The notes below the pieces were generated by a model that worked only from the letters and a program-made list of their open reading frames with translations, was not told where the DNA came from and did not search any database. A stretch of 64,000 bases of DNA, from positions 1-64,000 of the forward strand of contig NZ_FOWD01000018.1 in assembly GCF_900115365.1 (NCBI RefSeq), written 5' to 3'. A program made the position numbers and the translations under genes. Positions 12,992 to 35,485 of the stretch are shown here, in pieces; within the stretch, counting starts at the first letter, position 1, and each line of letters begins with the position of its first letter. The stretch comes from Anaerocolumna aminovalerica (lineage in GTDB: Bacteria > Bacillota > Clostridia > Lachnospirales > Lachnospiraceae).

Positions 12992-13045
12992 TGTAGAAAT
13001 TAATATATGTTTTTGTAGAAATTAATATATATGTTTATGTAGAGA
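12992..13045 (-). promoter_or_regulatory. Predicted LytTR (AgrA-type) binding repeats upstream of agrDB
   Basis: Read on the plus strand, TGTAGAAA occurs at 12992 and 13014 (period 22) and a third copy TGTAGAGA at 13038 (period 24). Each is followed by an AT-rich TTAAT stretch. LytTR regulators bind such direct repeats two helical turns apart. The same paired repeat lies upstream of the secreted protease (17187-17216) and of the ABC exporter (35456-35485). Binding is inferred from repeat geometry and context. Confidence 0.7.
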
Positions 13046-13083
13046 TTAAATTTTTTCAATCTGTTAGTTAAAATCACATAGAC

Positions 13084-14361
13084 TTAATTAATATACAAGA
13101 ATATATCTACTGTAAAATTATTATTTGTGTGATTTATTTCCATAGTTCCATTATATTTTTTTATTGCCTTTTCTATATTTTTCAAACCAATACCATGATT
13201 TTCTTTGTCTTTATGTGTAGAAATAATTTGATCATCCTCATAAAAAACAGCTCCGTCAAATGTATTATTTACATGAATATATAAGGTGTTTTTCCTATAA
13301 TTTAAGCGCACTTTTATCTTTTTATCATTACTCAATTTAGAAACTGCTTCAAAAGCGTTATCCAGAAGATTTCCAATAATTATTGCTATATCAAAAGACT
13401 CAATATTTATTTTTTGTGGAATCTTAGCTTCTACAATAACTTCTATACCTTTAGATTTCGCATTCTGTAATTTATAATTTAAGATACTATCAAAATCAAA
13501 ATTCCCCGATCTTGCCAGCTCCTGTTCACCATAAGAGGAGTTAAGGATATTCTGTATGTAATTTATAGCTTTTTCTGTATTATTTTTATATATATAACTT
13601 TCTATTATAGATAAATGATTTTTTATATCATGACGTACAGATTTCATATTTTTATATGAATTGTCCATTATTTCAAATTGTTTATGATAATAATTATTTT
13701 GCTGCTTTAATAAGGCCTTTTCGATTTTATCTTCATATACGCTATTTAAAACGTCATATAAATAGAACGCTACGATGTTAATAATAAGTAAAATAGATAC
13801 GCTTATAACTATTCTGTAGTTAGATAAGTTATTGCTTTCTAAAATTAAAAAGGTAACATATAAAGTACCAAAAGGAATTATAAATAAAGAAAGCCAATAG
13901 CTATTAGGTACATCTATACCCTTTTTTATATTTTTATAATTCTGAATGATTAATACTATAATATAAGAAAATAATTTTATACTCATTATACCTGCTATAG
14001 ATGAATACTGGGAATCCACACTAAATACAGATAAATCTATATAACCTGTTAATACTACCATAACCAATTCAACAGTCATTAAAATAACATACATGTATAT
14101 GGTGGAAATAACTCTTCTTTTAAAATTTGCTTTATAATTAAAAGTCAGTAAGAAAAATGCTATTATATTGGTTGTAAAGGTAATTATCGGTATATGAATT
14201 ACAAGATGTACGTAACTACTTACTAAAAAATATACCATGTAAAAGATAATTTCGAACATCCTTTTTTCTTTTGTTCTCTCGAAGAAAATACACATAAACT
14301 TAAAAACTGTATAGGTACCTAAAGCATTTGAGATTAAAAATACATAGTCATAACTATTCAT
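13084..14361 (-). CDS. AgrC-like sensor histidine kinase (GHKL type)
   Basis: About 425 residues. Roughly the first 205 residues contain six to seven membrane helices, as in AgrC receptors. A coiled linker leads to SVRHDIKNHLSIIE with phospho-acceptor His244, then GHKL ATP-binding motifs NLLDNAFEA and GIGLKNIEKAIKKYNG. It should sense the thiolactone peptide outside and phosphorylate the adjacent response regulator. The start is either this ATG or a TTG two codons earlier; both overlap the end of the regulator gene (stop at 14354), so the two are translationally coupled. Confidence 0.88.
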   Translation of the reverse strand: MNSYDYVFLISNALGTYTVFKFMCIFFERTKEKRMFEIIFYMVYFLVSSYVHLVIHIPIITFTTNIIAFFLLTFNYKANFKRRVISTIYMYVILMTVELVMVVLTGYIDLSVFSVDSQYSSIAGIMSIKLFSYIIVLIIQNYKNIKKGIDVPNSYWLSLFIIPFGTLYVTFLILESNNLSNYRIVISVSILLIINIVAFYLYDVLNSVYEDKIEKALLKQQNNYYHKQFEIMDNSYKNMKSVRHDIKNHLSIIESYIYKNNTEKAINYIQNILNSSYGEQELARSGNFDFDSILNYKLQNAKSKGIEVIVEAKIPQKINIESFDIAIIIGNLLDNAFEAVSKLSNDKKIKVRLNYRKNTLYIHVNNTFDGAVFYEDDQIISTHKDKENHGIGLKNIEKAIKKYNGTMEINHTNNNFTVDIFLYIN

Positions 14362-15076
14362 AATCAAAAGTTTCCCTTTCCAATTCTAATAATTTATCTC
14401 TAACTTTCTTTCTGTTATTTTGACTAATTGGCAATACAATGCTATTTAAAAGAGTTAACTGATGATATTCTATTTTAAAAACATAATTATAATTTACTAA
14501 ATAAGACTTGTGTATATTTATAAAATAAGGTAACTTCTCAGATATTTCTTCTAAAAATCCATAAAAGGTATCAACTTCATTTACAGTTATTATATTTACT
14601 TTACGATTTTTGCTTTCAAAATAAATAATATCTTTGATTGGTACCTTATAACTTGTCTGGCCTTTTTTATAAAGAAAAAGTTTTTTATTACCATTTATTA
14701 TTTTTAGTGCATATTTTAAAGGTGCGGCAATCTTATCATAAGTCAAAGGTTTAATTATAAAATCCAATGGCCTTATTTTAAATAGTTGCATAGCATAATT
14801 TTCTTTTCCAGATATATAAATAATCTGTGTTATTTCATTTAGCATTTGTTCGCGTATTATTTTTCCGACTTCAATTCCATTTAATAACTTTAATTCTATA
14901 TCTAAGAATATAATATCAAAGAAAACACCTTCATTTAAACGCTGACACAATTCTTCTCCTGATAAAAATGATTCAACATCCATTTCTTCCATAATCGTTG
15001 TCTCATAAACGTGCAGTAAATCTTCTAACTGGTCGCAAATAAAACCATCGTTATCACAAATTGCTATTCTTATCAC
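14354..15076 (-). CDS. AgrA-like LytTR response regulator
   Basis: 240 residues: receiver domain (acidic pair near residues 8-10, phospho-acceptor Asp59 in IIFLDIELKLLNG, lysine in FIIKPL) followed by a LytTR DNA-binding domain (about 135-235, IIYFESKNRKVNI and FINIHKSYLVNYNYV). The start is a GTG placed 5 nt after GGGGTGA; an earlier GTG touches that site. It is the likely activator acting at the TGTAGAAA repeats in this window. It has its own vegetative-looking promoter, separate from agrDB. Confidence 0.88.
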   Translation of the reverse strand: MIRIAICDNDGFICDQLEDLLHVYETTIMEEMDVESFLSGEELCQRLNEGVFFDIIFLDIELKLLNGIEVGKIIREQMLNEITQIIYISGKENYAMQLFKIRPLDFIIKPLTYDKIAAPLKYALKIINGNKKLFLYKKGQTSYKVPIKDIIYFESKNRKVNIITVNEVDTFYGFLEEISEKLPYFINIHKSYLVNYNYVFKIEYHQLTLLNSIVLPISQNNRKKVRDKLLELERETFDYE

Positions 15077-15130
15077 AAAAATCACCCCATCATCATTTTG
15101 TCATTCGTTGTTCGAATCTAACTACTATTT

Positions 15131-15158
15131 ATTATAGCATAGTCATTTCCTTAAGCAA
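15131..15158 (-). promoter_or_regulatory. Promoter of the response regulator-kinase pair
   Basis: Minus strand TTGCTT (15153-15158) and TATAAT (15131-15136), spacing 16 nt, with a TG one base before the -10. No TGTAGAAA repeat is present, so the sensing pair looks constitutively expressed while agrDB is inducible. Confidence 0.55.
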
Positions 15159-15295
15159 AGGAGTAAAATACCATTAAATGGTTTCATACCTGACTGTAAT
15201 GGTTGGTCTCCGTGTAATATTGCTATTTTTGTTTGGTTTGTTAATACTAATGTTTTATCAAAGTCACCTTTCTCTTCATTCTACAAGACTAATGC

Positions 15296-15379: not shown

Positions 15380-15826
15380 TTACTTAAATTGTTCCCGGAT
15401 GAGGTCATTAAACTTATCATCACTTGCTTCAAAAACTTTATCATCCACAAAAATCTGATTAGATAATATAGCAATACTTCTATAGCTACCATCTGAATAA
15501 TTAAATCGATAAAATGAATGACCAACCTTTACACGTGTTGGATCCGTTTCTCTCTCTTTTACTTCAGTTAATCTTAGTTCGGATAGAGCTTGACATATTA
15601 CTTGTAATTTATCTTTATCTTTGATACTTAATCTTCTGGGTGTATCCTCTATCTCCACAAGGTTTTTAAAATATTCATTTGTAAACACATTATTCGCCTC
15701 TCCGGTAACATGAATTATATTATCCTTTTTATTTATATGATAATACAATACACCGCTTGCTAATAGCAATAAAAGAACAAATAAAATAATTGTTCCTATT
15801 TTTTTATCTATATATTTTCTAGTCAT
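15380..15826 (-). CDS. Small membrane-anchored protein of unknown function in the agr-linked protease operon
   Basis: 148 residues. An N-terminal basic stretch and one hydrophobic helix (about 11-29) are followed by an extracytoplasmic domain of about 115 residues. The C-terminal part (residue spacing F-x-Y-SDGSYRS-I, then VFEASDDKF) resembles small bacterial domains seen near peptidases and ABC exporters; I do not recognise a firm family. It lies 58 nt downstream of the secreted cysteine protease and upstream of a terminator, so it is probably co-expressed and might be an inhibitor, chaperone or substrate. That role is a guess from position only. Confidence 0.7.
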   Translation of the reverse strand: MTRKYIDKKIGTIILFVLLLLLASGVLYYHINKKDNIIHVTGEANNVFTNEYFKNLVEIEDTPRRLSIKDKDKLQVICQALSELRLTEVKERETDPTRVKVGHSFYRFNYSDGSYRSIAILSNQIFVDDKVFEASDDKFNDLIREQFK

Positions 15827-15884: not shown

Positions 15885-17039
15885 TTAGTATATTGTAGCT
15901 TCCCAAGTAAGAAGATCTCCATTTACAGTATATTTAGGCCAACTATATTCAAAAGACCTATAATAGCCATTTGGATCATAAAATAGTACATTTTCTGTTG
16001 CAAAATTATAAAAATATCCGATACAAACAAGTGAATGTCCACCTTTCAAATCGCTCTTTAAGAGTTGCATAATAAAAGGCTTATCAGAATTAATTCTACT
16101 TTTTGCAGTACTATATGATATTTTACTACCACTCAAAGAATAGTAAATAGCATGATTTGCTAAAGCTTTTTGAATGTCTATTGCATTACCCCCATCATTA
16201 TATCCTATTCCCATTTCATCACAAATATTTTCAGCTGTATAATACATTGCTGGAGGAAGAGATCCGTTTCTATAATTAATAACTGTAGCGGCTGTGGCTG
16301 CCCAACAATTATTATATCTCTGAATTACAGCTGCATTAGATATGTCAAGTGTAAAAGAGGTATAAGGATCAGCTGCTACCGTATTTAATATATAAGATTC
16401 ACCAATAAATGGCTGTAACGATATTAAAGTATTTTCGTTATCATCTAATTCAATTAAATTACAAGAAAATTCACTTTCAATAAAATCAATTTTTTGATTA
16501 AAATCAAGGTTTTCGTTACTATTATCCTTTATTTCTACTTTACCATTTTCCTTGCTGTAATCTACTAGTAAATTTTTTTCGTCCTGATTTTCAATAAACA
16601 ATTTACTGTCATAAATGTTTAATAAATATTTAGAGTTGCTTTGTTTTATTTTAGCTAATTGGTCATAAACTCTTACATCATTCGAAATTGAAATTCCTGA
16701 ACTATCAGTTCGGCTAGCCATTAAAACACACTTACTATTTAAATATATTGGGTAATAAAATACCCTTTCTTTTATATCTAAATTATAACAGATAATATCG
16801 TTACCAACTATAAACTGAGAATCGGAATCTGCACTAACTATATCTTTAAATAGTGGAAGTTGACTATTAATATCATTAATATAGTTATCAATACTTCCAT
16901 TATTCCTATTGTCGGAATATATACTTAAACTTTGTAGAGATAAATCATTATTCTCCTCGGCAAATGCTGTAGCTGATAAACCAAATGCGAATATTATTGA
17001 CAAAAACAAACAAAATATTTTTCTTAATCTTCTACTCAT
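15885..17039 (-). CDS. Secreted papain-like (C39-type) cysteine protease
   Basis: 384 residues. The first 28 residues are a Sec signal peptide ending ATAFA. A long pro-region of about 200 residues precedes a catalytic domain with NNCWAATAATVINY (Cys245), KGGHSLVCIGYFY (His335) and FYDPNGYYRSF (Asp355/Asn357 region), the order Cys-His-Asn/Asp of papain-like C39/C70 peptidases. The layout of signal, propeptide and C-terminal domain is that of a secreted zymogen like staphopain. Start MSRRLRK is set by AAGGAGGT just upstream. Its promoter carries the same paired TGTAGAAA repeat as agrDB, so quorum-controlled secretion is likely. Substrate unknown. Confidence 0.8.
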   Translation of the reverse strand: MSRRLRKIFCLFLSIIFAFGLSATAFAEENNDLSLQSLSIYSDNRNNGSIDNYINDINSQLPLFKDIVSADSDSQFIVGNDIICYNLDIKERVFYYPIYLNSKCVLMASRTDSSGISISNDVRVYDQLAKIKQSNSKYLLNIYDSKLFIENQDEKNLLVDYSKENGKVEIKDNSNENLDFNQKIDFIESEFSCNLIELDDNENTLISLQPFIGESYILNTVAADPYTSFTLDISNAAVIQRYNNCWAATAATVINYRNGSLPPAMYYTAENICDEMGIGYNDGGNAIDIQKALANHAIYYSLSGSKISYSTAKSRINSDKPFIMQLLKSDLKGGHSLVCIGYFYNFATENVLFYDPNGYYRSFEYSWPKYTVNGDLLTWEATIY

Positions 17040-17152: not shown

Positions 17153-17216
17153 ATAGTAACATAAATTCACTTTATGTGCGGAGGGTTGTAGAAAAATATA
17201 TATGTTATTGTAGAAA
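17153..17216 (-). promoter_or_regulatory. Predicted LytTR (AgrA-type) activated promoter of the secreted protease
   Basis: TGTAGAAA at 17187-17194 and 17209-17216 (period 22, plus-strand reading). On the minus strand a TACTAT hexamer (17153-17158) lies 28 nt downstream of the proximal repeat. The spacer between repeats (AATATATATGTTAT) closely matches those at agrDB and at the exporter. No strong -35 is seen. Confidence 0.68.
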
Positions 17217-17368: not shown

Positions 17369-19345
17369 TTATTTTATCTTCCAACGAAATTTATTTTGTG
17401 CGATAAGTATCTCATCATTGAAAGATAGTTTATATAATTTATGAGCAGTTAACCGTACACCATTTAGAAATGTACCGTTTGTTGAACCTAAATCTATCAG
17501 ATAGATATCTTCCTTTTCTCTCATGAATTTAGCATGTCTACGGCTTACCGCCGGATCTTGTATTTTATGATTCACACCAGCGACAAGCTTCCCAATAATG
17601 AAAGGGAATACACTTACAGATATTACAGTATTATTAGCATCATCGCAGGACTCCAGATAATATTGTACTTTCGGTGTCAGGTCTGCCAGAATTTTTGTTT
17701 TCTCAGAGTCATTTTCTTCTTCCTTCCATAGGACTGTTGTATCTTCCTGCTCGCCATCAAAATCACCTTTACTACCCTTATTATTATCTTTTCCTATCCA
17801 TAATTCGCTTTCTGCAATCATGTCTAAATGTACTTGTCCACCTAAGTTTGAATGAATTGTTTTTTCACTATTGGATTGTATTTCAGACTGTATTTCTATA
17901 TCTATGGTTGACTGTTTGTCCGAATATAACTTTCTATGGTTTTTTATTTCCATCACTTCTTCTAAATTAGGTTCTATATATTCCACACTGGTAACCATTT
18001 TAGTAATTCGATTATCTTTGTTAAATAGTTTACTAAAAATATAGATTTCTCCGGAACATATTATAAGTAATGAACCAATCAGTTTTACACTGTCTATTTG
18101 GGTTCCAAAAGTATTATATAAAAGCTTTAGATGAAGGATAACCGCTAGCAGAATAACACCAAGTAAAATTGCCCCTAAAGCCATTACATACGTTTTCTTT
18201 TCATAAACTAATACCTCTTTATCACTTTCAACTTCTTCTATAAATGGATAATCATTTTCTTGGTTTCTGCAATTTTCGTTTTGTGTATATCTACTACTTC
18301 TTTCCCTTTCGTGAATTTTCTTATCTTTATGAAACCAGTTGTTTTTATCTAAAAGTTTCTGTATCTGCCTCCATTTGTTTCCCAAAGAAGATGAAAGTGT
18401 AGGATTATTATTACTTTCCTTAATGTCTGCTCTCTTTTTAAAATCATTATTTGTTTTTTTATCTCTATTTGCTTTTTCTTTTTTACTTGTTCTTGTGTTT
18501 TTATTTGTCCGTGTATCTTTATTTGTTCTTGTATCTTTATTTGTTCTTGAATCTTTACTGGTTCTTGAATCTTTATTTGTTGTTCTTGTATCTCTTGTAT
18601 CTCTATTTGCTTTCTCATCTTTATGTACTTTAGAATTTTTATTTATACTTAAATCTTTATATTGTTTTGAATCTCCAAGGTATCCTGTATTATAATTCGT
18701 ATGTTTCCATGTCTCATGAACTTGGGAAATGTAATTATCTTCTACATTGTATTTTTCTGTATTTTCACCATTTTTAATATCTGACTTTTCATTTTGGAGA
18801 GGCAGTTTCTTCTCTATTTCTTTCATTAGTCTTTCATATGTACAATCTTCTTCTCGGCTTTCTTTATACAATCCATATGTTAATACCACTGCATTTTCAT
18901 CTTTATAGTTAATTTTATTCATAAGATATTCCATAAGCTTACTAAACTGAATTAGCATATTTGTTTGATATCCCTCAAGATAGCACATATAAACAGTGTT
19001 CATATTATCTGAAACAAAGATATACTCCGGATCTATGATAAAATCATTTTCTGAAAGCAAATATTCTCCACTTCCATTAATGGTTTTCAAAATGCCTCCA
19101 AGTAGCTTTTTTATATCCTCATATTGTAGAGATTTGTTTTCATAAGCAGCCGCTAATGATTTTTTTCCCGTAATATCATAATAGAATAAATCCATTTGAT
19201 CAATAAACTTTAACTCAACTTTTATTAGTCCTTCAATGGTGTTATTCAACAAAATCTTTGTCCTAAATCCATATGGGCAATCTTTTATTCCTTTTAATAT
19301 TAAGTAATTATTATGAATATCTCTTACATACTCTGCATGTAACAT
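17369..19345 (-). CDS. DUF6382-type/FHA-domain protein of the Tad pilus locus
   Basis: 658 residues. Residues 1-190 match the DUF6382 type found at the start of FHA proteins in clostridial Tad loci. Residues about 235-300 are a low-complexity basic stretch of repeated KDTRTN-like units. Two hydrophobic helices lie near residues 395-450. The last ~95 residues are an FHA phosphothreonine-binding domain (FIIGK, VSRRHAKF, LIDLGSTNGTFLNGV). The FHA end is probably cytoplasmic and could recruit phosphorylated partners. AGGTGGAG precedes the chosen ATG; a longer frame would overlap the upstream TadE gene. It is the last gene of the Tad operon. Confidence 0.82.
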   Translation of the reverse strand: MLHAEYVRDIHNNYLILKGIKDCPYGFRTKILLNNTIEGLIKVELKFIDQMDLFYYDITGKKSLAAAYENKSLQYEDIKKLLGGILKTINGSGEYLLSENDFIIDPEYIFVSDNMNTVYMCYLEGYQTNMLIQFSKLMEYLMNKINYKDENAVVLTYGLYKESREEDCTYERLMKEIEKKLPLQNEKSDIKNGENTEKYNVEDNYISQVHETWKHTNYNTGYLGDSKQYKDLSINKNSKVHKDEKANRDTRDTRTTNKDSRTSKDSRTNKDTRTNKDTRTNKNTRTSKKEKANRDKKTNNDFKKRADIKESNNNPTLSSSLGNKWRQIQKLLDKNNWFHKDKKIHERERSSRYTQNENCRNQENDYPFIEEVESDKEVLVYEKKTYVMALGAILLGVILLAVILHLKLLYNTFGTQIDSVKLIGSLLIICSGEIYIFSKLFNKDNRITKMVTSVEYIEPNLEEVMEIKNHRKLYSDKQSTIDIEIQSEIQSNSEKTIHSNLGGQVHLDMIAESELWIGKDNNKGSKGDFDGEQEDTTVLWKEEENDSEKTKILADLTPKVQYYLESCDDANNTVISVSVFPFIIGKLVAGVNHKIQDPAVSRRHAKFMREKEDIYLIDLGSTNGTFLNGVRLTAHKLYKLSFNDEILIAQNKFRWKIK

Positions 19346-19370
19346 AATCTCCACCTCATTTTGCACTTCA

Positions 19371-19952
19371 CTATTTAAATGAACCAATTAACTTTTGTAA
19401 TTTTTGCAGTATCTCATCTATGAATTTTACTTTTTCGGCCACTCCTGAAAAAACATCAAAGGTTCGTATAAATTCCACCGTATTATGTATTTCCATTGTG
19501 TTTTCACTGCTAAATGTTAATCCGTTATTAGTAAAAAACTGTTTTACCTCTCTAAATGGAATGTCCATATGTCCATTAACCAATACATGAATCCTATTAA
19601 AAGAGGCCGATACAGTAACAGAATCAACCTTTGCAATAAACAAACCTCTATTTAATTGTTTCACAAGGTATGCATTTATTTTATATTCCTTTTCCGTAAA
19701 ATCAGTAAAGTAGGGATAAAGTAAAGAACGGTTTTGATAATAGTCATAATCAATAAGACCTGTTTCTAAATCAGCTTCATACTGAATCAGTTCTCGTCCT
19801 CTTGTAGAAGCGTCATTAATAACGGATTGTATCTTTACTTTATCATGTAAGTAAAATCCCAAATATAATAATCCTATTATGATAAAAAGAATAATAGGAA
19901 GGATTAAGGCAGCTTCTACCGTATAGCTGCCTTTTACTGTTGATTTATCCAA
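19371..19952 (-). CDS. TadE-like pseudopilin
   Basis: About 193 residues. The N-terminus STVKGSYTVEAALILP has the TadE/class-IVb prepilin pattern: cleavage after Gly8 with Glu at +5, followed by a 20-residue hydrophobic helix and a mainly beta extracellular domain. The start is inferred as the TTG overlapping the stop of the prepilin peptidase gene, with GGGGGTG before it; an ATG 14 codons earlier would lie further inside that gene. Minor pilin of the Tad system, matured by one of the two peptidases here. Confidence 0.8.
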   Translation of the reverse strand: MDKSTVKGSYTVEAALILPIILFIIIGLLYLGFYLHDKVKIQSVINDASTRGRELIQYEADLETGLIDYDYYQNRSLLYPYFTDFTEKEYKINAYLVKQLNRGLFIAKVDSVTVSASFNRIHVLVNGHMDIPFREVKQFFTNNGLTFSSENTMEIHNTVEFIRTFDVFSGVAEKVKFIDEILQKLQKLIGSFK

Positions 19953-20385
19953 AGAGCAGCACCCCCATGTAACCAAAGAGCAGAAATGGTACAAAAGGAA
20001 TGGTTTTCTTTCTCCCTGCTAATTTGAATGTTAGCAGAACAATAGAGAATATGGCAGAGGCGAGCAAGCTGACTGCCAGAAGCATGGCATTCCTTGAAAA
20101 TCCCAGGCATAATCCTGTAATACATACAATCAAGCCATCTCCGGTACCAATTTGGCCTTTCGTGATAAAACTAAGGCATAACAGGATGAGCCCCAAGCTC
20201 ATTCCTCCAAGGCAAAATAAAAAATTAAATTCTCCATTCCATGTCATACTAATTAAAAGTACAAAAAACCCGGCTAATCCGGCCAATATTAAATAAATAT
20301 TAATCTTCTTCTTTTTTATATCCTGTATACTGCATAAAAGCAGCCATAGGAACAAAATGGTATAAGTAATGTGCAATTGATTCAT
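19945..20385 (-). CDS. Prepilin peptidase (A24/TadV type), copy 2
   Basis: 146 residues, five to six helices. The two catalytic aspartates are present: Asp22 in QDIKKKKI and Asp83 in GTGDG. The short form lacking the methyltransferase domain fits TadV/CpaA peptidases that cut Flp and TadE/F prepilins. It overlaps the TadE gene by a few bases. A second A24 peptidase is encoded at the head of the operon. Confidence 0.88.
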   Translation of the reverse strand: MNQLHITYTILFLWLLLCSIQDIKKKKINIYLILAGLAGFFVLLISMTWNGEFNFLFCLGGMSLGLILLCLSFITKGQIGTGDGLIVCITGLCLGFSRNAMLLAVSLLASAIFSIVLLTFKLAGRKKTIPFVPFLLFGYMGVLLFG

Positions 20386-20503
20386 AAATCCCCTTTTCTA
20401 AATGCAATTTTTATAACATTTCCATGTGTTGTTTTATTATAGCCAATGCTGCTTTGCCCCTAGCTTTAAAATCATATATACATATTTTGTTCGCTTTTAA
20501 ACT

Positions 20504-21472
20504 CTACTTTCCACATCTTTTGCAAGGACTTCTATCTCCCACTTCTGATTTTGGAATGGCTATTATTGTTCTTTTTAATCCGCTGCAACCTAAACTTTTA
20601 TGATAGCGATCACCGTAATCCGTAATATACACTTTATGATTCTCCAATCCCGTCTCATATTTATCACATATTTCACACTCTTTATATTTTCCACCGGCAG
20701 CATTCCTTAATCCCTTGATATCATCTATGTGAACCTCTTTAATAGATAAATTTAAATGACTGCATTCTTTGCTTAAATGATATACTCTTCCATGTTCCGT
20801 AATATAAACTATTTCAGAGTCTTCATTGGTTTCTTCCGTATCACTTTTTAATTCAATCTTAGTACCGCTCCAGCCCCGAAGTTTAACCCGCTGAACCATT
20901 GGGAAACCATCTACTTTAATAAAAAGAAGAGGCAGCTTTACTTTATAAACAAGTATAATATCAATAGTATCCTCTTCTTCCATAAAACTAGATAAATAAG
21001 TATGAATTCCGGAATACCCTCCTTGGATACAAGATTGATTTATACTTTCCACATCAACATAATCTTTTAATTTTATCTTATAAAAGGTACTATCAATTGC
21101 TTTGGCTATAAGACCTTCCACACTGTTCTCTATTTTGTCCCTTTTATCGTCAAAGGTTTTTTCTTCATTGTCAGTATAATCTTCCGGCACATTATTTACT
21201 CTGTTACCCTGACTTTTTGAAATACTCTCCTCTGAGGGTTTTATACTATGATTACCTTCATAATTATGCATATAGTCATACACATACCCATACTTAGCTG
21301 CAAAATAACCGGTCTCAGTAATACCATTTTGAAGATTCTCCTGCAACCAAAGTATTTGAAGAAAATAAACAATGGCTAATATAGCATAAATAAAAATTGG
21401 AAGCACCAAAGCCACCTCAACCGTTAGCAACCCTTTTAACTCTTTATTATTTTCACTATAGATAATTTTCAA
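20504..21472 (-). CDS. TadE-like pseudopilin with two C-terminal cysteine/histidine repeats
   Basis: 322 residues. The N-terminus ELKGLLTVEVALVLP has the TadE cleavage pattern (after Gly14, Glu19 at +5) and a hydrophobic helix. Residues 222-271 and 281-322 are two tandem repeats, each VYIT-x2-G-x2-YH-x4-C-x2-L followed by a C-x2-C pair: His232, Cys237, Cys266, Cys269 and His291, Cys296, Cys317, Cys320. This looks like a metal-binding (zinc) or disulfide-stabilised knob displayed at the pilus tip or surface. The repeat type occurs in other clostridial surface proteins, but its ligand is unknown. Confidence 0.8.
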   Translation of the reverse strand: MKIIYSENNKELKGLLTVEVALVLPIFIYAILAIVYFLQILWLQENLQNGITETGYFAAKYGYVYDYMHNYEGNHSIKPSEESISKSQGNRVNNVPEDYTDNEEKTFDDKRDKIENSVEGLIAKAIDSTFYKIKLKDYVDVESINQSCIQGGYSGIHTYLSSFMEEEDTIDIILVYKVKLPLLFIKVDGFPMVQRVKLRGWSGTKIELKSDTEETNEDSEIVYITEHGRVYHLSKECSHLNLSIKEVHIDDIKGLRNAAGGKYKECEICDKYETGLENHKVYITDYGDRYHKSLGCSGLKRTIIAIPKSEVGDRSPCKRCGK

Positions 21473-21540
21473 TCACTTCATTTCTAATATTTAATTACGT
21501 TTTCTTTAAAATTAATAATAATGCTATTTACTATAATATT

Positions 21541-21688
21541 AATCTTTATAGAATGAATTGGGATATCCGTCCTTGTAAGAGAAGGTTGCTTGGATGAAAT
21601 GCTTTCTTGGAGAGAGATTGTTTTCTATTTTATATGTTTTTAGAACCTGTAGATAAGAACGGATATCCCAATCCATTCTATAAAGATT
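21541..21688. repeat. 148-bp element with 30-bp terminal inverted repeats inside the Tad operon
   Basis: The first 30 bases (starting AATCTTTATAGAATGAATTG) and the last 30 are inverse complements with a single mismatch. The element lies between the 818-residue pilus protein gene and the 322-residue TadE gene. It could be a MITE remnant or a large mRNA stem that adjusts expression of downstream genes. There is no T-tract, so it is not a simple terminator. Confidence 0.7.
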
Positions 21689-21732
21689 TAATAAAAACAG
21701 TTCATTATAGCAGTTCTTTAATGATTTTTTAT

Positions 21733-24497: not shown

Positions 24498-24620
24498 TCA
24501 ATTCCAGCAACCTGCATTTAGATTTTTTTGATAAAAGTTGACCCTATTAGAAGATTTATTATTCATTTTTGATATAACTTCCTTGGCAGCCACATACGGT
24601 GCATAAAACCAGAGAAACAT
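24498..24620 (-). CDS. Possible 40-residue small membrane protein between tadC and flp
   Basis: An ORF starting MFLWFYAPYVAAKEV and ending NLNAGCWN fits between the tadC stop and the flp start. A GTG four codons earlier (24632) is an alternative start. It has one hydrophobic N-terminal stretch and a polar, Asn/Lys-rich tail. No strong ribosome binding site is seen, so it may be a remnant or chance. Not recognised. Confidence 0.3.
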   Translation of the reverse strand: MFLWFYAPYVAAKEVISKMNNKSSNRVNFYQKNLNAGCWN

Positions 24621-24643
24621 AATAGTAAACACAATGCTGCTAA

Positions 24644-26107: not shown

Positions 26108-26222
26108 ATCTTTTCACCTCCTTTCCGGGAAAGTTCATATTATCCTCGGTTCTGATGCTTTAAGCAAATATCCTAATCTGTTACATTTGCTTAATTTAAT
26201 CTCCAAGAAAAGTAGGGCTTAT

Positions 26223-26966
26223 TTAAATTTCTATTTTCATAATTTTATGTGCCAGTTTATATACAAAATAATACAGAATCAATACAATTGTCATGAATAC
26301 CGCTCCAAAGGTATTATTATAAAGAGGTTCCAAAAATCCTGCTGAAAATAATCTTAAATACAGAATGATGCAAAATGGAATCAAACACATAATAGAGGTT
26401 TCAAATTTCTTTCCTGTAATCATAGTCAGAATTTCCCGTTTCACTTCCACCTTATCTCCAATGGTTTTGCAGGTTCTGCGTATAATCTTCACAATATCTC
26501 CCCCTGTTCTCTTGGCAGTAACAAATACTTCTGCGAAATTTGTAATGTCTTCTATTTTGCTTCGAATGGAAAAATCCATTAGAACCTCTTCAACAGTCAT
26601 ATTCATTTTAATCTGCCTTACCATTCCTTCAAATTCCTGTACAATAAAAGCATCTGCCGGGTACATAAGCTTAAGATCCATAACAGCCTGATGGAAAGCA
26701 TTTTCTACGGAATATCCTGCGTTTAGAGCCGCAGAAACACTGGAAAGTCCATCTTTAAACTGTAGATTCAGAATCCATTTTCTCTCTTCTATCTTTTGCT
26801 TTTTCTTATTCTGAACAAAGATAAATCCATAGCTGCCAAGAAGTATTGCTCCTATAATACTAGAATAAAATAATATACCAATACAGAAACCTATAGCCCC
26901 ACCTTGCAGAAATAACTTAATCCACTCTTTTTTTGAGTAAACATATACATTGTAATCTTCTATCAC
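26223..26966 (-). CDS. tadB: TadB-like type II secretion F-domain protein
   Basis: 247 residues with two N-terminal helices, a cytoplasmic T2SF domain (LQFKDGLSSVSAALNAGYSVENAFHQA, TKR-GGDIVKIIRRT) and two C-terminal helices. Together with TadC it would form the membrane platform driven by the CpaF ATPase. It overlaps the end of the ATPase gene by 4 nt. Confidence 0.88.
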   Translation of the reverse strand: MIEDYNVYVYSKKEWIKLFLQGGAIGFCIGILFYSSIIGAILLGSYGFIFVQNKKKQKIEERKWILNLQFKDGLSSVSAALNAGYSVENAFHQAVMDLKLMYPADAFIVQEFEGMVRQIKMNMTVEEVLMDFSIRSKIEDITNFAEVFVTAKRTGGDIVKIIRRTCKTIGDKVEVKREILTMITGKKFETSIMCLIPFCIILYLRLFSAGFLEPLYNNTFGAVFMTIVLILYYFVYKLAHKIMKIEI

Positions 26967-28177
26967 AATATCCCCGCTTTACTTAACTTTGATAAATTTA
27001 TTAGTTCATTATTGGTTTTTTGTAAACGTCCCGTTACCCTTCCATTCTCGTCCTCACCCATTTCTTTAAAAACAAACAGCTTATTTACTTCAATTTCTCC
27101 ATCTATACAATCCAATACTTCTGCAATTTCCAACACCCGCCGGCTTTTATCCCGCAATCGTCCTAAATGAACGATAATGTCAATGGCAGAAGCTATCTGT
27201 TTCCTTACTGCCATTAAGGGAATATCTGCTCCCATAAGGATCAGTGTTTCCAATCGGTTTAGCATGTCTACTGCCGAATTAGCATGTCCTGTGGACAAAG
27301 AACCATCATGTCCGCTATTCATAGCCTGAAGCATATCAATGGCCGCCGCGTCTCTAACTTCGCCCACAACAATTCGATCCGGCCGCATTCTTAAGGATGA
27401 TTTAATAAGATCCCTGATAGTTACTGCATTCTTACCTTCAACATTTCCATTTCGAACTTCCAGCTTTACCAAATTAGGAATATTCTTAATCTGAAGTTCC
27501 GCCGAGTCTTCAATGGTTATTACCCTCTCTTCCTTGGGAATAAAGTTAGACAGTACATTTAAAAAAGTCGTTTTACCGGAACCGGTGCCCCCACTAATGA
27601 ATATATTGTAGCCGGCAATTACAAGCTTTTCTAAGAAGTTAGCTGCCTCCTCTGTTATAGATTCCATTTCAATTAACTTTCTTATGGTAATAGGGTTCTC
27701 CGGAAACTTACGAATAGTAACCACCGGTCCATCCATTGCAACAGGAGGAAGTACAATATTTACCCGGGAGCCATCAGAAAGCCTTGCATCTACTATAGGA
27801 CTTGCTTCATTAATGATCCTGTTGGACTTTGAAACAATTTGCTGAATCACATCTTCTAATTTTCTTTCTGATTCAAACTGTCCTTTCCACGGCCTTATGG
27901 AACCATTCTGTTCAATAAAAATATTTCGGGCTCCGTTAATCATAATCTCTGTTATAGAAGAATCCTCTATTAATTCTTGCAAAATATCCAGCCTGCGTAT
28001 GGAATTAAAAATTTCTTTTCTAAGACGTCTTTTATCCTGCATACTAATATAGTTTTCCCGACTGCCGGACAATAATATCTCGTCAATAACCTCTAATATT
28101 TCATCATCTTGCAATTCCCTGGATAAATCTATTTTTGATATAACCAATTCCTGTAGTTTTTGTTTTAAACCATTCAT
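26963..28177 (-). CDS. cpaF: CpaF/TadA secretion ATPase
   Basis: 404 residues of the VirB11/CpaF family. Walker A GGTGSGKTT (Lys202), an Asp-box VITIEDSAELQI, Walker B RMRPDRIVVGEVRDAAAIDML and the histidine-box SLSTGHANS are all intact. It should hydrolyse ATP in the cytoplasm to drive Flp assembly. The gene starts directly after the TadZ-like gene with no gap. Confidence 0.95.
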   Translation of the reverse strand: MNGLKQKLQELVISKIDLSRELQDDEILEVIDEILLSGSRENYISMQDKRRLRKEIFNSIRRLDILQELIEDSSITEIMINGARNIFIEQNGSIRPWKGQFESERKLEDVIQQIVSKSNRIINEASPIVDARLSDGSRVNIVLPPVAMDGPVVTIRKFPENPITIRKLIEMESITEEAANFLEKLVIAGYNIFISGGTGSGKTTFLNVLSNFIPKEERVITIEDSAELQIKNIPNLVKLEVRNGNVEGKNAVTIRDLIKSSLRMRPDRIVVGEVRDAAAIDMLQAMNSGHDGSLSTGHANSAVDMLNRLETLILMGADIPLMAVRKQIASAIDIIVHLGRLRDKSRRVLEIAEVLDCIDGEIEVNKLFVFKEMGEDENGRVTGRLQKTNNELINLSKLSKAGIL

Positions 28178-29188
28178 TCAAACCTCCTGGAAGCTCTTCA
28201 CGTATTCCATCACTATATCCCTATATTCTTCACTATATAAATCATTGGGAGTATAATACCCCAATCTGTTTTCCACATCTTTTGATATGGCCACCTCCGT
28301 TATCTGCACTAATACATCCCCATAACCTGCCAATTGCAATTGACTTCTAAAATTTAGGTATTTCTCTTCTTCCAGTCTTTGTTCTCCTATTAGTAAAAGT
28401 AGTTCATTGGAACTGCGGAATAACTCAAGTGTTGATTCAAAAAAACAACCCACATCAAAGATAATTACTTCATACTCTGAAGACTCTTTTAATGTTTTAA
28501 TCCAGTAATATATATCTTCTGGAACCAATTCATAAATATCCGGACCAAAAGACACGCCCTGAATACAGTCCAGATTATTTATTTTTGTTATAATTCCATT
28601 CATTTTTGATATCAGATTGGGGTGACTCTGTTTTAGATAATAGATAAATTCAGACAGACCTTTTTCAAAATTACTTCCACTATTTTTAGTCCAAGGAGAA
28701 AACAGATCCAGATTAATATATAAAGTCCTTTTTATCTTCGCATATTCACTGGCTAAGAAATAAGAGAATACCTGCCTTTCATTCTCTTTTCCTACAGAAA
28801 ACACACTGATAATATTCAAACTCCCATTGCCTGAAAGAAAAGCCCTTATTAAAGTATCTTCCAGTGGAAAGTAAGAGAACAGCTCCTCCATAACCTTTTG
28901 AGCCGATTGAAATTTGTAAATTACATGGCAGTTTTCTTCTTCTCTTGCAAAATTCCCTTCTGATAAGATACAAATATTCTTAATATTCCGGTGCAAAACT
29001 TCGTCCGTATTAATTTCCTCATTAAGCAGTAAAACATTTAATTTATCATGTTCTAAATACTCCATTAAACTCTTTGCATTGGTAAAAATCCTCACCTGTG
29101 TAATGGCTTTTTGCTTACGTTTTATATAGTCCATCAGTTGGTTTGCATAGTCTGTATCCGGATCAAAGATTCCCAAGATATAACTCAA
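28178..29188 (-). CDS. Degenerate CpaE/TadZ-like protein
   Basis: 336 residues. The N-terminal ~110 residues look like a receiver-like fold (LGIFDPDTDYANQL, LNVLLLNEEI), and the rest has the order of a MinD/ParA-type ATPase. The P-loop position reads ISVFSVGKENERQ, with no GK[ST], and only later strands such as VIIFDVGCFFESTLE are kept. It therefore probably cannot bind ATP normally, as known for some TadZ proteins. A role in locating the pilus machine at the pole is inferred from family and position. Confidence 0.75.
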   Translation of the reverse strand: MSYILGIFDPDTDYANQLMDYIKRKQKAITQVRIFTNAKSLMEYLEHDKLNVLLLNEEINTDEVLHRNIKNICILSEGNFAREEENCHVIYKFQSAQKVMEELFSYFPLEDTLIRAFLSGNGSLNIISVFSVGKENERQVFSYFLASEYAKIKRTLYINLDLFSPWTKNSGSNFEKGLSEFIYYLKQSHPNLISKMNGIITKINNLDCIQGVSFGPDIYELVPEDIYYWIKTLKESSEYEVIIFDVGCFFESTLELFRSSNELLLLIGEQRLEEEKYLNFRSQLQLAGYGDVLVQITEVAISKDVENRLGYYTPNDLYSEEYRDIVMEYVKSFQEV

Positions 29189-29306
29189 ATAAAATCCTCC
29201 TTTCTATAAAAATATGTTACTTTTTATATTCTTTTTTCCTGATTATTACTCAGTGAAAATCATATTGTATATTAAATTAAGTAACATCTAAGTTAAAAGT
29301 TTACAT

Positions 29307-29861
29307 TTAGTAAGCTAAAAACACCTGAATAATAAATGCGCTTAATATTGCTATGGAAAAATGAATGGTTCCTCCATAGCCATCTTTTTTAATATCATAA
29401 TAAGAAATCACAAATTGTTTCTTCCCTTTTTCACCCAGATAATTTACTTTACTGCCATAAGCTTGAATATATTCTGCAAGAAACTGCAGCCGGCAAATCA
29501 ACTTTTTTGATTTAATAAGATGAATAATAGACATTAGCCCTCCAATGAGAAAAGCTATAATGATAGTTTGAAAGACAAAAGTTGCCCCGTAAAAACTTCC
29601 CACTATAGAAAATAATTTAATATCCCCTGCTCCCAGTACTTTAAATAGAAATAGAATAAATAATAATAAAATTGGCAGGAAACTACCGATTAAACCAGTT
29701 AATATGCCCTTTCTTCCAAATTCATATGTTTGAAAAGCAAAACCGATGGAAATACCTATGACGATAAGTAGATTACTGATTTTATAGGACTTCAAGTCTC
29801 TATAAACCCCAAAAAGAATTAAGAAGATTAGGCAAGCTATTTTAGCACTAATACGCTTCAC
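29307..29861 (-). CDS. Prepilin peptidase (A24/CpaA type), copy 1
   Basis: 184 residues, six helices. Catalytic aspartates Asp22 (YRDLKSYKISN) and Asp80 (GAGDIK) are present. A ~45-residue basic loop follows helix 4 and makes it longer than copy 2. It is the first gene of the Tad operon. Confidence 0.85.
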   Translation of the reverse strand: MKRISAKIACLIFLILFGVYRDLKSYKISNLLIVIGISIGFAFQTYEFGRKGILTGLIGSFLPILLLFILFLFKVLGAGDIKLFSIVGSFYGATFVFQTIIIAFLIGGLMSIIHLIKSKKLICRLQFLAEYIQAYGSKVNYLGEKGKKQFVISYYDIKKDGYGGTIHFSIAILSAFIIQVFLAY

Positions 29862-32032: not shown

Positions 32033-32602
32033 TTAGTAAGTCCAATGGTTATCCTCAACGACAACCTTACCCTTATCATCTAAACCTTGTATGGTTTTTC
32101 CTGAAGCACTTTCTTCATCTATTTTAGTAAAAAACAAACCATTATCTTTGGCAAGAGTGCATTCGTATGTTTTCCCTTTAGGTCCTGTAATTATAATTTT
32201 TCTTACATTAAGCTCGGGGTTACAAACTCCATAGATAAAAATTGTATCATTCCTATATACAGTATCTACATAGATTCCATTATTATTTAAAAAAAGACTC
32301 AGAACAGAATTTCCAGTAATAGCTAAGAATGACTTCCTCCAAGTGGAATCATCACGAGGTTCTAATTCCATAACTATAACCCCTTGATCTGTAAGAGTGC
32401 AGAATATACTCCTGTCATTATACTCTTTTTCAATCACTTCTATTATCGAAGCATTTTTCGTTTCTTCTTCGAATACATATTCTCTTGTATATTCCTTTTT
32501 AATGTTCTTTGGATTACCTAATATATAAGTAATTACAAGGTCTGCGATAAATATAGCAGAGATTACAATAATCATAAAAATTCTTGATATTTTATTTAAC
32601 AT
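32033..32602 (-). CDS. Membrane-anchored accessory protein of the ABC exporter operon, function unknown
   Basis: 189 residues. One N-terminal hydrophobic helix (about 9-28) is followed by a ~160-residue extracytoplasmic domain of mainly beta character, with no cysteines of lipobox type at the expected place. I do not recognise the family. It lies 30 nt after the second permease gene and before the operon terminator. Extra extracytoplasmic proteins (LanI/LanH-like) often accompany LanFEG immunity transporters, so a role in peptide recognition is plausible but not shown. Confidence 0.65.
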   Translation of the reverse strand: MLNKISRIFMIIVISAIFIADLVITYILGNPKNIKKEYTREYVFEEETKNASIIEVIEKEYNDRSIFCTLTDQGVIVMELEPRDDSTWRKSFLAITGNSVLSLFLNNNGIYVDTVYRNDTIFIYGVCNPELNVRKIIITGPKGKTYECTLAKDNGLFFTKIDEESASGKTIQGLDDKGKVVVEDNHWTY

Positions 32603-32632: not shown

Positions 32633-33361
32633 TTAATCTTCATTTCTCTTATAATAAAATATATAAATTATACCAGACAGCATTATATAAATTATAATCG
32701 CAACAAAAGAATACACTTTATTTAAGTATAAATCATTTCCCATTCTATATGAGATTATAGAAAATCCAGTGGTAATCGGGTGCCAGTTTACTAGCTTACC
32801 ATTTGAAATAAACACCCCTATTACTCCTACTATCATAGAAAATAAAGTCCCCCATATATATTTTCCTCTTGATTTTGAAAAAAAGAGAATTATTGGCAGC
32901 ACACCTATATATGTACATACTTGCATAATAACAAGGGATGTAATTGCTTCAATAATTGTGTTCCTATTTATTCCCGAACATTGTAAGATAAAACCGGTAC
33001 AAATTAATATAATAATGTTCAGTAAAGCAAGAAATAATGAATATATAAGCATTGTAATCATTTTTGCCTCTATTACCCTACTCCATTTAATTGGTACCAC
33101 TAAAATATTCTTTTGTGTATCCTCTATCTGTTCTTTATTAATGATATACCCACCAATTAATGTAAGTGTAAAGGGCAGTATTATCGTTACATTGTTCCAG
33201 ATATTCATATCTAATAAATTAGAAAAAAAAATTTTACCCTGGCTCTTGACAGTTTGTTGCATGATAGATATAACATGAGATAATACAATACTTATAATTC
33301 CTACACTAAGAATTTTTAATCTTTTTAATTTTTTTAATTCGCATCTAATAATTTGAAACAT
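32633..33361 (-). CDS. ABC-2-type exporter permease, LanG-like
   Basis: 242 residues with six hydrophobic helices in the pattern of the BcrB/LanEG permeases. Starts MFQIIRCELKKLKRLK, the typical amphipathic N-terminal helix of this family. With the sister permease (33372-34127) and the ATPase it would form an exporter. The gene is 10 nt downstream of its sister. Confidence 0.82.
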   Translation of the reverse strand: MFQIIRCELKKLKRLKILSVGIISIVLSHVISIMQQTVKSQGKIFFSNLLDMNIWNNVTIILPFTLTLIGGYIINKEQIEDTQKNILVVPIKWSRVIEAKMITMLIYSLFLALLNIIILICTGFILQCSGINRNTIIEAITSLVIMQVCTYIGVLPIILFFSKSRGKYIWGTLFSMIVGVIGVFISNGKLVNWHPITTGFSIISYRMGNDLYLNKVYSFVAIIIYIMLSGIIYIFYYKRNED

Positions 33362-33371
33362 ATCTCACCTT

Positions 33372-34127
33372 CTATATTTTCTGTTTTATATATATCAACA
33401 TACTGGAAAATGCTGAAACTATAGCTGTTCCTGCCAATACAATGACTCCGGTACTTGCAGGATAATATAGTCTATCTATACCTTCCTGCAAAATAGATGT
33501 GTAATTCACAATTTGTAATGGATAAGTGATTCTATATGCAATTAAAAACGGCAAATGCAGATCAAGTAGTTTTAACATTGTCACCTGCCATAATAGTAGA
33601 AACTGAATAATAATAAAACAATTAACAAAAATCATTGATAGCAAATACCTTTTTCTAAAAATTACTATCACTAATAATATCGGCAAAGAAGCACTTATAG
33701 AGGCAATTGCTGTTAAAAGTAAAGCTGCAAATGTCCTTCCAACATAGCCGGAATCGTTTAAGAACATTCCTCCGATTAATGTATACAGACATGTAACAAT
33801 ATTAAATATAATTATTAAGAAAAGGGCTGTCACTAACTTTATTATATATATCTTCCACTTTTCTATTGTCGTTACCAGAATATTTTTCATCGTATCATTT
33901 TGCTCTTCAATCTGAAAAAGCAATAGTAATATTACTGAAAATAGACTAGGCGTTATCAGAAAGTTTCCAATCAAAATATTCAGGCCTACTAAACTTCTAT
34001 ATGGCAACTGATCCCTTATACATATTAATGTCCATAATACCGGCATAATCAGACCAAGAATGCAAATTATCCTTATTATTCTTTGTCGCTTGAGCTTTTT
34101 TAACTCATTAAAATATAATCTAAGCAA
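33372..34127 (-). CDS. ABC-2-type exporter permease, LanE-like
   Basis: 251 residues with six hydrophobic helices and the N-terminal LYFNELKKLKRQRIIR helix of LanE/LanG permeases. It overlaps the ATPase gene by 8 nt. Two different permeases per ATPase is the standard layout of lantibiotic/bacitracin protection transporters. Confidence 0.82.
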   Translation of the reverse strand: MLRLYFNELKKLKRQRIIRIICILGLIMPVLWTLICIRDQLPYRSLVGLNILIGNFLITPSLFSVILLLLFQIEEQNDTMKNILVTTIEKWKIYIIKLVTALFLIIIFNIVTCLYTLIGGMFLNDSGYVGRTFAALLLTAIASISASLPILLVIVIFRKRYLLSMIFVNCFIIIQFLLLWQVTMLKLLDLHLPFLIAYRITYPLQIVNYTSILQEGIDRLYYPASTGVIVLAGTAIVSAFSSMLIYIKQKI

Positions 34128-35043
34128 TTCCTGTTCCCCCTGTCACCCTAATAAAATAGTCTTCCAGGCTTTCTTCATCAACATAAATTCTTTCTACTTT
34201 AATATTATTCAGAACCAGCGTTTTATTAAGCTCAGGTATAGATAATTGTTCCTCATAAATTCTTATTTCATTTTTTTTGACCACTTCAAATCTGTCTGTT
34301 TTATACTCTTTTTCTATTATTTCTTTTGCAACATCTATGTTAGAAACCATGAGCTGAATAAAATTCCTGCGCTTTTTCTGTAATTCCTCTCTACTTCCTT
34401 CATCTAACAATTTTCCCTGATCAATTATACCAATGTCATCAGCAAGCATTTCTATTTCTGAGAGAATATGACTGGATATTAATATGGTTTTTTCTCTTTT
34501 GTCACATAAATTTCTAATAAAGGTCCTAACCTCTGCAATACCAATAGGATCAAGTCCGTTTGTAGGCTCATCAAGAATTAACAAATCTGGAGAATGCATA
34601 ATAGACAATGCAATCGCAAGTCTCTGCTTCATTCCCATAGAATATTGTGAAAATAACTTTTTATCATGATAAGGTAAGCCTACAAACTCCATCGCGTTTT
34701 TAATTACAATCTTATCATTTATCTTGCGTAACGTAGCAAATATTTCTAAATTTTCTGAACCAGTTAAGTTCGAATAAAATCCCGGAGATTCAATTAGGCT
34801 TCCAACCCTCGGAAGTATATCTTTTTTATGTAATCTAATATCTTTTCCCCATAAATAAGCATGTCCAGAAGTTGGCGTTAATAAATCTAGGAGCATTCTC
34901 ATTGTAGTTGTTTTGCCTGCTCCATTCCTTCCCAGTAGTCCATATATCTTTCCTTTCTGTACATGAATATTTAAGTTATCAACACTTCTTTGATTACCAT
35001 ATAGTTTAGTTAAATCTTTAGTCTCAATTATTGATTCTTGCAT
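34120..35043 (-). CDS. ABC exporter ATPase of the BcrA/LanF type
   Basis: 307 residues with Walker A GRNGAGKTT, signature YSMGMKQRLAIALS, Walker B LLILDEPTNGLDP and a C-terminal extension ending SLEDYFIRVTGGTGIA, a tail characteristic of BcrA/LanF ATPases in antimicrobial-peptide resistance. It would drive removal of a hydrophobic peptide from the membrane. AGAAGG lies before the ATG. The long leader upstream holds a predicted agr-type promoter. Confidence 0.88.
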   Translation of the reverse strand: MQESIIETKDLTKLYGNQRSVDNLNIHVQKGKIYGLLGRNGAGKTTTMRMLLDLLTPTSGHAYLWGKDIRLHKKDILPRVGSLIESPGFYSNLTGSENLEIFATLRKINDKIVIKNAMEFVGLPYHDKKLFSQYSMGMKQRLAIALSIMHSPDLLILDEPTNGLDPIGIAEVRTFIRNLCDKREKTILISSHILSEIEMLADDIGIIDQGKLLDEGSREELQKKRRNFIQLMVSNIDVAKEIIEKEYKTDRFEVVKKNEIRIYEEQLSIPELNKTLVLNNIKVERIYVDEESLEDYFIRVTGGTGIA

Positions 35044-35150
35044 TTTCAGCCTTCTTTCATTTCAATATATTTATATAATAATGTTACTCCTTAAATAGGA
35101 ATTGTTGTTCCTCTTATTCCAATATTATAAATGTATTTTATACGGTGGGA

Positions 35151-35158
35151 TGTTGAAA
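35151..35158 (-). promoter_or_regulatory. Single TGTTGAAA half-site in the exporter leader
   Basis: A lone copy preceded by GGTGGGA resembles the GGGGTGGTGTTGAAA context of the main site 305 nt further upstream. A TATAAT on the minus strand lies 21 nt downstream. No second repeat is seen at 22 nt, so it may be a decayed duplicate site. Confidence 0.3.
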
Positions 35159-35400
35159 TAACTACTTAATTATTTAAACCTAGTAGTAAGTAAAACTTGG
35201 TGAGTATCCATACATACTTTACGTACTACTGGTATATAACAAAAAAATTCAAAGACCTTTTACTTAGTGGCTAAAATTTCTTGTATTAAAAATCTAATAA
35301 TAATTATATAAAAATAAATATTAGTTATATTTTTCTTCGAGAACTTCATTGTTGTTAAAAATTTAATCAACTACTTTTTCAATCCACTTCAGTGCTTTTT

Positions 35401-35446
35401 ATAGATACCTTATTATGTTATTATAATAACATAATAAGGTATCTAT
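35401..35446. repeat. Perfect 46-bp palindrome at the exporter promoter
   Basis: The two 23-nt halves (starting ATAGATACCTTATTATG) are exact reverse complements. It lies just downstream of the TGTAGAAA repeats as read on the minus strand, and a minus-strand TATAAT (35420-35425) sits near its centre. A dimeric or tetrameric repressor operator is the simplest reading; a cruciform or mRNA hairpin is possible too. Confidence 0.8.
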
Positions 35447-35485
35447 GCGGGGTGGTGTTGAAATTACTATATATTATTGTAGAAA
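35420..35485 (-). promoter_or_regulatory. Predicted LytTR (AgrA-type) activated promoter of the ABC exporter operon
   Basis: TGTTGAAA (35456-35463) and TGTAGAAA (35478-35485), period 22, with spacer TTACTATATATTAT. A minus-strand TATAAT at 35420-35425 lies 30 nt downstream of the proximal repeat. The layout matches the agrDB and protease promoters, and the GCGG/GGGTGG flank also resembles the protease site. Confidence 0.62.

Follow-up and report, generated by a model that had tools for sequence, protein, structure and literature searches.

The window analysed here is a 64,000-nucleotide stretch of the Anaerocolumna aminovalerica genome (family Lachnospiraceae; RefSeq assembly GCF_900115365.1, contig NZ_FOWD01000018.1, positions 1 to 64,000). 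It carries an agr-type quorum-sensing locus and three copies of a paired direct repeat, referred to below as the box. A pattern search for TGTWGAAA-N14-TGTAGAAA finds the pair without mismatches at 12992-13021 (box A, before agrDB), 17187-17216 (box B, before a protease gene) and 35456-35485 (box C, upstream of an ATP-binding cassette (ABC) operon). Read on the minus strand, which is the direction of transcription, each box is TTTC(T/A)ACA-N14-TTTC(T/A)ACA, and the three spacers are similar, A+T-rich and conserved. The repeat of box A is TTTCTACA-N14-TTTCTACA, accompanied by a third, degenerate unit (TGTAGAGA, 13038-13045). A first-pass annotation of this DNA had described the paired motif, its 22-nt period and its alike spacers at the same three places, all of which the search and the sequence bear out; the third unit of box A was absent from it.

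The box is rare. The window holds 19 single copies of TTTCWACA over both strands and three pairs 9-59 nt apart, all three with a period of 22 nt; in 200 dinucleotide shuffles of the window, no pair occurred at 22 nt, and the mean number at any distance from 9 to 59 nt was 0.065. In the whole genome (4.62 Mb, 83 contigs, designated here by C-numbers), the exact pair occurs four times, in the three window boxes and at C70:41005, and five further copies have one mismatch; the reversed control gave none in either search. The first-pass annotation had named recurrence at hundreds of random genomic sites as an outcome that would refute it, and this did not occur. A search with three mismatches was too permissive to be informative (eight found vs 4.1 expected, equalled by 7 of 100 shuffles).

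Reading leftwards, the order of features is box B, the protease gene, a gene for a 148-aa protein, a terminator-like hairpin (by eye), an agrA-like gene, an agrC-like gene, box A, agrD and agrB, all genes lying on the minus strand. agrD (12762..12905) encodes a 47-aa peptide precursor (MKKLIFKTCGVVANLALLVTVLNVNASCMLFAHQPELPKGAEKLRKF; TIGR04223, 37.6 bits vs a cut-off of 19), whose ring is presumably CMLFA by analogy with known AgrD. It adjoins agrB (12193..12759; PF04647, 143.7 bits), encoding the peptide-processing membrane protease. Family profiles assign SPOB_a and HATPase_c_5 domains to the agrC-like sensor kinase (13084..14367). The AgrA-like response regulator (14354..15085) combines REC and LytTR domains, with D62 as phosphoacceptor according to profiles and alignments; its matches to the Response_reg and LytTR profiles agree with the earlier description of a LytTR protein encoded between the sites. 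All parts of an agr locus are therefore present (AgrB, an AgrD adjoining agrB, an AgrC-type kinase and a LytTR regulator), and scores with the staphylococcal AgrC and AgrA equivalog models fall short of the cut-offs (17.9 of 500 and 37.6 of 400 bits). No Rfam family matched positions 12000-36300 at the gathering threshold, and hence no known regulatory RNA or RNAIII-like RNA was found there. The genome encodes seven LytTR proteins, the window regulator included. A second agr locus (agrB, kinase, LytTR) lies just beyond the window end at C31:64728-67013 without a TTTCWACA box, and a third agrB, with internal stops, is found at C37:90389; these two other agr loci (L057, L058) are boxless at up to two mismatches.

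The box also has a fixed position relative to a promoter. We aligned nine sites: boxes A, B and C, one site each on C70 and C40, two on C56, and one each from the same-genus genomes G013 and G006. Their consensus is roughly TTTYNACAAAAAYATATATTAATTTYNACA, 24-25 nt, then TGNTANNNT, with 21 invariant columns. In all nine, the TGN of an extended -10 begins 24-25 nt past repeat 2, and the repeats end 4-5 nt ahead of the -35 place. The extended -10 elements of the window, read from the sequence and the site alignment, are TGATAAAAT for promoter A (12958..12966), TGTTACTAT for promoter B (17153..17161) and TGTTATTAT for promoter C (35423..35431), all on the minus strand. Counted on the sequence, the -10 hexamer starts 28 nt (A), 28 nt (B) and 27 nt (C) past repeat 2; the first-pass annotation had the same distance for A and B, and its value of 30 nt for C belongs to an overlapping TATAAT. 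TTGACA stands at the -35 place in none of the nine sites. YSGCA is found there (TCCGCA in promoter B, CCCGCA in promoter C, CTGGCA elsewhere) in two of the nine and in 8 of 12 foreign sites, a conserved feature. LytTR and AgrA boxes are typified by a pair of direct repeats with a period of about 21-22 nt, lying close ahead of the -35 in a weak promoter, and both traits are seen here. An activator site beside a poor -35 is the layout expected for a LytTR-activated promoter. A perfect 46-bp palindrome (35401-35446; two 23-nt arms, loop-free) spans the -10 of box C; it could serve as an operator for a repressor or form a hairpin.

With profile R1, built from the nine aligned sites, eight places in the own genome score strongly, at 34-55 bits: boxes A, B and C, two on C56, and one each on C40, C70 and C71, of which only the C71 site lies outside the training set. 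The next score is 15.9, on C54. Matches near 15 bits (this one; 15.6 each for C72, C63 and an uncertain partial box, box G, described below; 15.0 for C24) were not accepted as sites on score alone. The C54 match is kept as a site because a second profile, R2, gives it 17.6 bits, and its G013 orthologue scores 26 bits. The training set of R2 consists of 12 promoters taken from other genomes, the majority beside agr kinase genes. Its top three matches in the whole genome are box A (37.4 bits), box B (32.9) and box C (28.4), followed at ranks 4-8 by the two C56 sites, C40, C54 and C71; C70 appears in two pieces at ranks 10 and 12. The top eight are seven of the eight strong R1 sites plus C54. R2 gave no match at the two other agr loci up to E 1. 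Neither profile detects a box at the promoter of the window's regulator-kinase unit, which has a promoter-like sequence of its own (TGCTATAAT, near 15140, by eye), and the loop thus seems to close on agrDB only.

Outside the window, the C56:6503 site precedes genes for a small secreted protein (broken here, intact in G013 and L104), a MacB-type ATPase and a 741-aa FtsX permease. The C56:2907 site precedes genes for a secreted protein of the Amidase_6 family and for a 288-aa protein whose N-terminus, by eye, looks like that of a lipoprotein. Behind the C70 site, an exported protein of no known family is read in two overlapping frames, followed by a 122-aa anchored protein; the C40 site stands before a 136-aa membrane protein, and the C71 site before a small anchored protein present in partial tandem copies. 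The C54 site lies behind the gene of an orphan regulator, and the genes after the site encode a secreted C92 peptidase and a lipoprotein. Each of the nine units (A, B, C, C70, C40, the two on C56, C71 and C54) has exported or membrane products, as judged from families, hydropathy and inspection by eye. G013 keeps both C56-type sites, and the second again precedes the gene for the 288-aa protein; no amidase open reading frame (ORF) was seen there in the 3 kb covered. The earlier proposal of a local agr regulon made up of agrDB, protease and exporter is supported in silico as far as the link between the three units goes. The predicted regulon is not local, since the other contigs hold a further five strong sites.

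Three of these units have features of their own. The unit at C56:1-6600 (L062), with its counterpart in L104, has a bacteriocin-type look, with a secreted protein, a MacB-type ATPase and an FtsX permease, and we take it to resemble lactococcin 972 systems; the small secreted protein has no family match. The exported protein at C70:39617-40614 (L060:3618-4615) is perhaps frameshifted, its longer piece having no Pfam family above cut-off. At C71:49140-50306 (L093), at the contig end, a strong box is followed by several partial tandem copies of the membrane-anchored protein.

The box is conserved beside regulator-kinase genes in other genera. We scanned the best 80 loci among the regulator-alignment matches listed; R1 gave 16 matches at E<=0.1, 14 of them from -30 to +350 nt of the kinase stop codon. 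Without the training loci L109 and L117, 13 of 14 matches lie in this zone, which makes up 1.5% of the bases (binomial P about 2e-23, assuming independence, yet four Acetobacterium-type sites are near-alike). The L109 match lies 602 nt past the kinase, ahead of agrD. Among the hosts are Acetobacterium, Lutispora, Sporobacter and Lachnospiraceae. The box is followed by an ORF resembling agrD (by eye) and by agrB in L112, L116, L118, L119 and at the first L120 site; behind the L113, L114 and L122 boxes there are other genes or none convincing, agrD having been sought by eye. The L119 contig is filed as an Ignavibacteriae metagenome-assembled genome (MAG), but is very close to Acetobacterium in both regulator and box; the filing is probably a binning error.

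In a family draw of 299 genomes including our own, made with stricter filters, R1 at E<=1e-4 gave, besides the own genome, four matches in three of the other 298 genomes. Two are in G136, one between kinase and agrD and the other ahead of a gene whose 339-aa product has a signal-like N-terminus, and the G066 match lies directly behind a regulator-kinase pair. Within the genus, 5 of 14 genomes have an R1 match at E<=0.01 (ten matches in total, some weak), including G001, G004 and G006:C94. In four same-genus genomes, a subtilase gene follows regulator, kinase and box: L046 (G011), L047 (G012), L043 (G005) and L059/L152 (G007). With R2, the match at L047 is a weak one of 12.5 bits. The window protease, the subtilase and the target of the C54 orphan belong to three families, which suggests that a protease has been brought under the box more than once.

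We placed 93 regulators in a tree (quick method, midpoint root), with rows from 79 of the 80 loci (L152 is split and failed the length filter). The box label came from a separate scan for G011, G012, own_C54 and G013_C53, and from R1 at E<=0.1 for the others. All 18 box-labelled regulators fall inside one starred group of 54, and the other half of the tree, 32 rows including the genome's second and third agr regulators, has no box label. The label is an undercount, because R2 later found sites in L043, L049 and L141; L110 could show no box, as its contig ends inside the kinase gene.

The tree also contains regulators with no kinase related to the window AgrC in their locus. Kinase-linked regulators have the phosphoacceptor Asp in 73 of 73 rows, and kinase-less ones in 9 of 20, a set in which some contigs end early and distant kinases may escape detection. 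The 11 kinase-less rows lacking Asp have Glu (six), Gly (three) or Ser (two), though the loss events are fewer than the rows because L126 is the same as G010_309 and own_C54 and G013_C53 look like orthologues. The own C54 orphan carries Glu at this position. Kinase-less regulators include C54:60477 (L051), L050, L041, L056, L121, L125, L126, L151, L156 and L183. R2 sites lie beside L050, L051 and L151, and weakly beside L056; none was found in the other 7 of 11 orphan loci scanned (L126 and L053 are the same region).

The gene behind box B (15885..17039, minus strand) encodes a secreted papain/C39-like cysteine protease of 384 aa with a signal-like N-terminus, a call based on PF13529, conservation and hydropathy. 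The PF13529 match is a narrow pass (26.6 bits vs a cut-off of 24, query from the second codon). The catalytic residues expected of this family are conserved, C244 in 11 of 12 rows and H334 in 12 of 12 (numbering from the second codon). A search of solved structures with the protease gave nothing up to E 1, and a single-sequence structure prediction was discarded (mean pLDDT 35). By position, its transcription unit also includes the gene for the 148-aa protein (15380..15826, minus strand), which has a hydrophobic N-terminus and no Pfam or NCBIfam matches. A single inhibitor family made up of the small anchored partner proteins was considered and dropped, as the 12 proteins compared show no supported similarity. 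Between boxes B and C lies a Tad-like pilus operon (17369-29861, by eye) with a DUF6382/FHA protein and no R2 matches inside it.

Box C and its operon are 18 kb to the right of box B, in the order box C, box G, ATPase, two permeases and a 189-aa protein, all on the minus strand. Box G (35126..35168) is an uncertain, partial second box near the ABC gene, consisting of the promoter-proximal half only. It repeats box C at 81% over 26 nt (35139-35164) and was absent from the first-pass annotation; its R1 score equals that of unrelated places, and R2 does not list it. The ABC ATPase (34120..35043) is lantibiotic-protection-like (TIGR03740, 238.3 bits, under the cut-off of 309.75). The two ABC2 permeases (33372..34127 and 32633..33361) match PF12730, and score 15.9 and 37.9 bits with the MutE/EpiE model against a cut-off of 145.2. 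The operon ends with the 189-aa protein (32033..32602), which has a hydrophobic N-terminus and no family matches. With its ATPase and two ABC2 permeases, the operon is like LanFEG/MutFEG, which also provide the best-scoring NCBIfam models. However, all three proteins score under the curated LanF/LanE/LanG cut-offs, and the LanFEG-like exporter of the earlier description is therefore kept as a resemblance, not as a LanFEG immunity transporter.

Taken together, we consider it likely that the agr response regulator (14354-15085) uses the box as its operator and drives the boxed units through it. This reading draws support from the rarity of the box, its position between kinase and agrD in other genera, the grouping in the regulator tree and the activator-type geometry; binding by LytTR is suggested by the co-occurrence of box and regulator genes. 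A LytTR domain would bind both direct repeats, which are set two helical turns from each other along the same face of the DNA, just upstream of a weak -35, and the bound regulator would recruit RNA polymerase to the extended -10 promoter. AgrB would process AgrD to a cyclic peptide that activates AgrC at high density, and AgrC would phosphorylate AgrA. Phosphorylated AgrA would then turn on agrDB, giving positive feedback, along with the genes for the secreted cysteine protease and the membrane-anchored protein that accompanies it, the LanFEG-like ABC operon and, on other contigs, a minimum of five further units for exported or membrane proteins. If so, control would depend on phosphorylation, run in the direction of activation and co-express these units, perhaps as a density-triggered programme of extracellular hydrolases and transporters.

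The boxes might instead be read mainly by another LytTR protein, for example the orphan at C54:60477, with AgrA sharing them or not using them. This orphan sits in the box-bearing group, and the related site that follows its own gene scores 18.3 bits in the locus scan, besides the 17.6 bits with R2 in the own genome. However, that site is divergent (CTTCAAAAG/CTGCAAGAG), and in other genera the box is linked to regulator-kinase-agrD loci, which counts against an orphan reader; we regard this alternative as unlikely. A general promoter element, such as an UP-like A+T-rich stretch or an alternative sigma site, would explain a conserved, A+T-rich spacer and the fixed distance of every aligned site from an extended -10 without any LytTR operator. 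Such an element would be common and without regulator linkage, whereas there are only eight strong sites per 4.62 Mb, clustered beside agr genes across genera, making this very improbable. It is harder still to believe that the three sites are recent copies of one DNA piece, spread by a mobile element or duplication without a shared regulator. The three tandem units of box A and the likeness of box G to a partial copy of box C might hint at copying, but the other-genome profile recovers all three boxes, and the distance to the -10 is constant over an intervening sequence that varies.

Several observations nevertheless weigh against an operator of the agr regulator. Compared by eye, the TTTCWACA core is unlike the LytTR repeats quoted in PMC6193735. 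In the tree, the box-bearing group of 54 contains 36 regulators that have no box label, and the label is patchy, with 12 changes (2 of 500 shuffles were as low). Besides the window regulator there are six LytTR proteins in the genome; the tree contains three of these, among them the orphan within the box-bearing group. Among the matches in other genomes, the one in L149 is on the wrong strand, and the one in G229 has no gene resembling the window agr genes in the 3 kb covered. Searches of the box-bearing same-genus genomes G013 and G006 (81% and 78% complete) turned up neither the window protease nor the single ABC permease sought, and at 11 protease homologue loci, which are short and in some cases cut by contig ends, R1 gave one partial match of 8.5 bits. 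Finally, the R2 training sites were found with R1, itself trained on the window boxes, and two of them come from the same genus; the R2 test is hence strong but not fully blind.

Among known systems, VirR boxes are paired imperfect direct repeats immediately upstream of the -35 (PMC2838878), and VirSR of Clostridium perfringens has few direct targets, including ccp, the clostripain protease (PMC2838878, PMC4877802). Likened by layout, our system shares with VirR a LytTR regulator fed by an agr-like peptide and paired repeats; unlike with VirR, boxes in the window also precede agrDB and an operon for a transporter, at promoters of the extended -10 type. In Staphylococcus aureus, two direct repeats for AgrA lie upstream of P2/P3, with a suboptimal promoter (PMC4227749), and agr shows positive feedback (PMC8748961). 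The window locus likewise has an AgrA-type LytTR regulator and two direct repeats before the signal-gene promoter, but its regulator-kinase genes form a separate boxless unit, with only agrDB boxed. The LytTR systems HdrRM and BrsRM and bacteriocin promoters use 9-nt direct repeats mostly 12 (11-13) nt apart, such as ACCACTTAT, upstream of the -35 and mostly 10 bp before it, and the hdrRM promoter has an extended -10 (PMC6193735). Those systems are one-component pairs of a LytTR protein and a membrane inhibitor, whereas here TTTCWACA ends 4-5 nt before the -35 place.

This box is not described in the titles and abstract starts of the literature searched, subscription papers being outside its scope, and the excerpts of the agr and LytTR literature compared do not define an AgrA box for this group. 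In the available parts of PMC10301443, PMC8748961 and PMC3754575, the term 'direct repeat' occurs 0 times. PMC10301443 does provide reporter data for the Agr-controlled CA_C0082 promoter of Clostridium acetobutylicum, where the 88-bp agrA-CA_C0082 interval proved Agr-dependent, a ready place for trying the box. Our analysis supports in silico that the box would belong to the known LytTR/AgrA kind, with a predicted regulon wider than the first-pass annotation held.

The orphan paralogues are the boldest lead. Speculatively, and with more doubt than belief, a clostridial clade of AgrA regulators could have had the box as its ancestral operator and retained it at the agrD promoter in several families, with the targets changing over time as unrelated proteases (C39-like, subtilase, C92), an amidase and transporters were recruited in succession. 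The kinase-less, Asp-less relatives, six rows of which carry Glu, would then perhaps read related boxes next to some of their genes, as a second, phosphorylation-independent input to this type of promoter. To our knowledge, the targets of agr peptides outside well-studied pathogens are poorly mapped. A box recognisable from sequence would allow high-density behaviour to be predicted genome by genome; here, the prediction would comprise proteases, an amidase and transporters.

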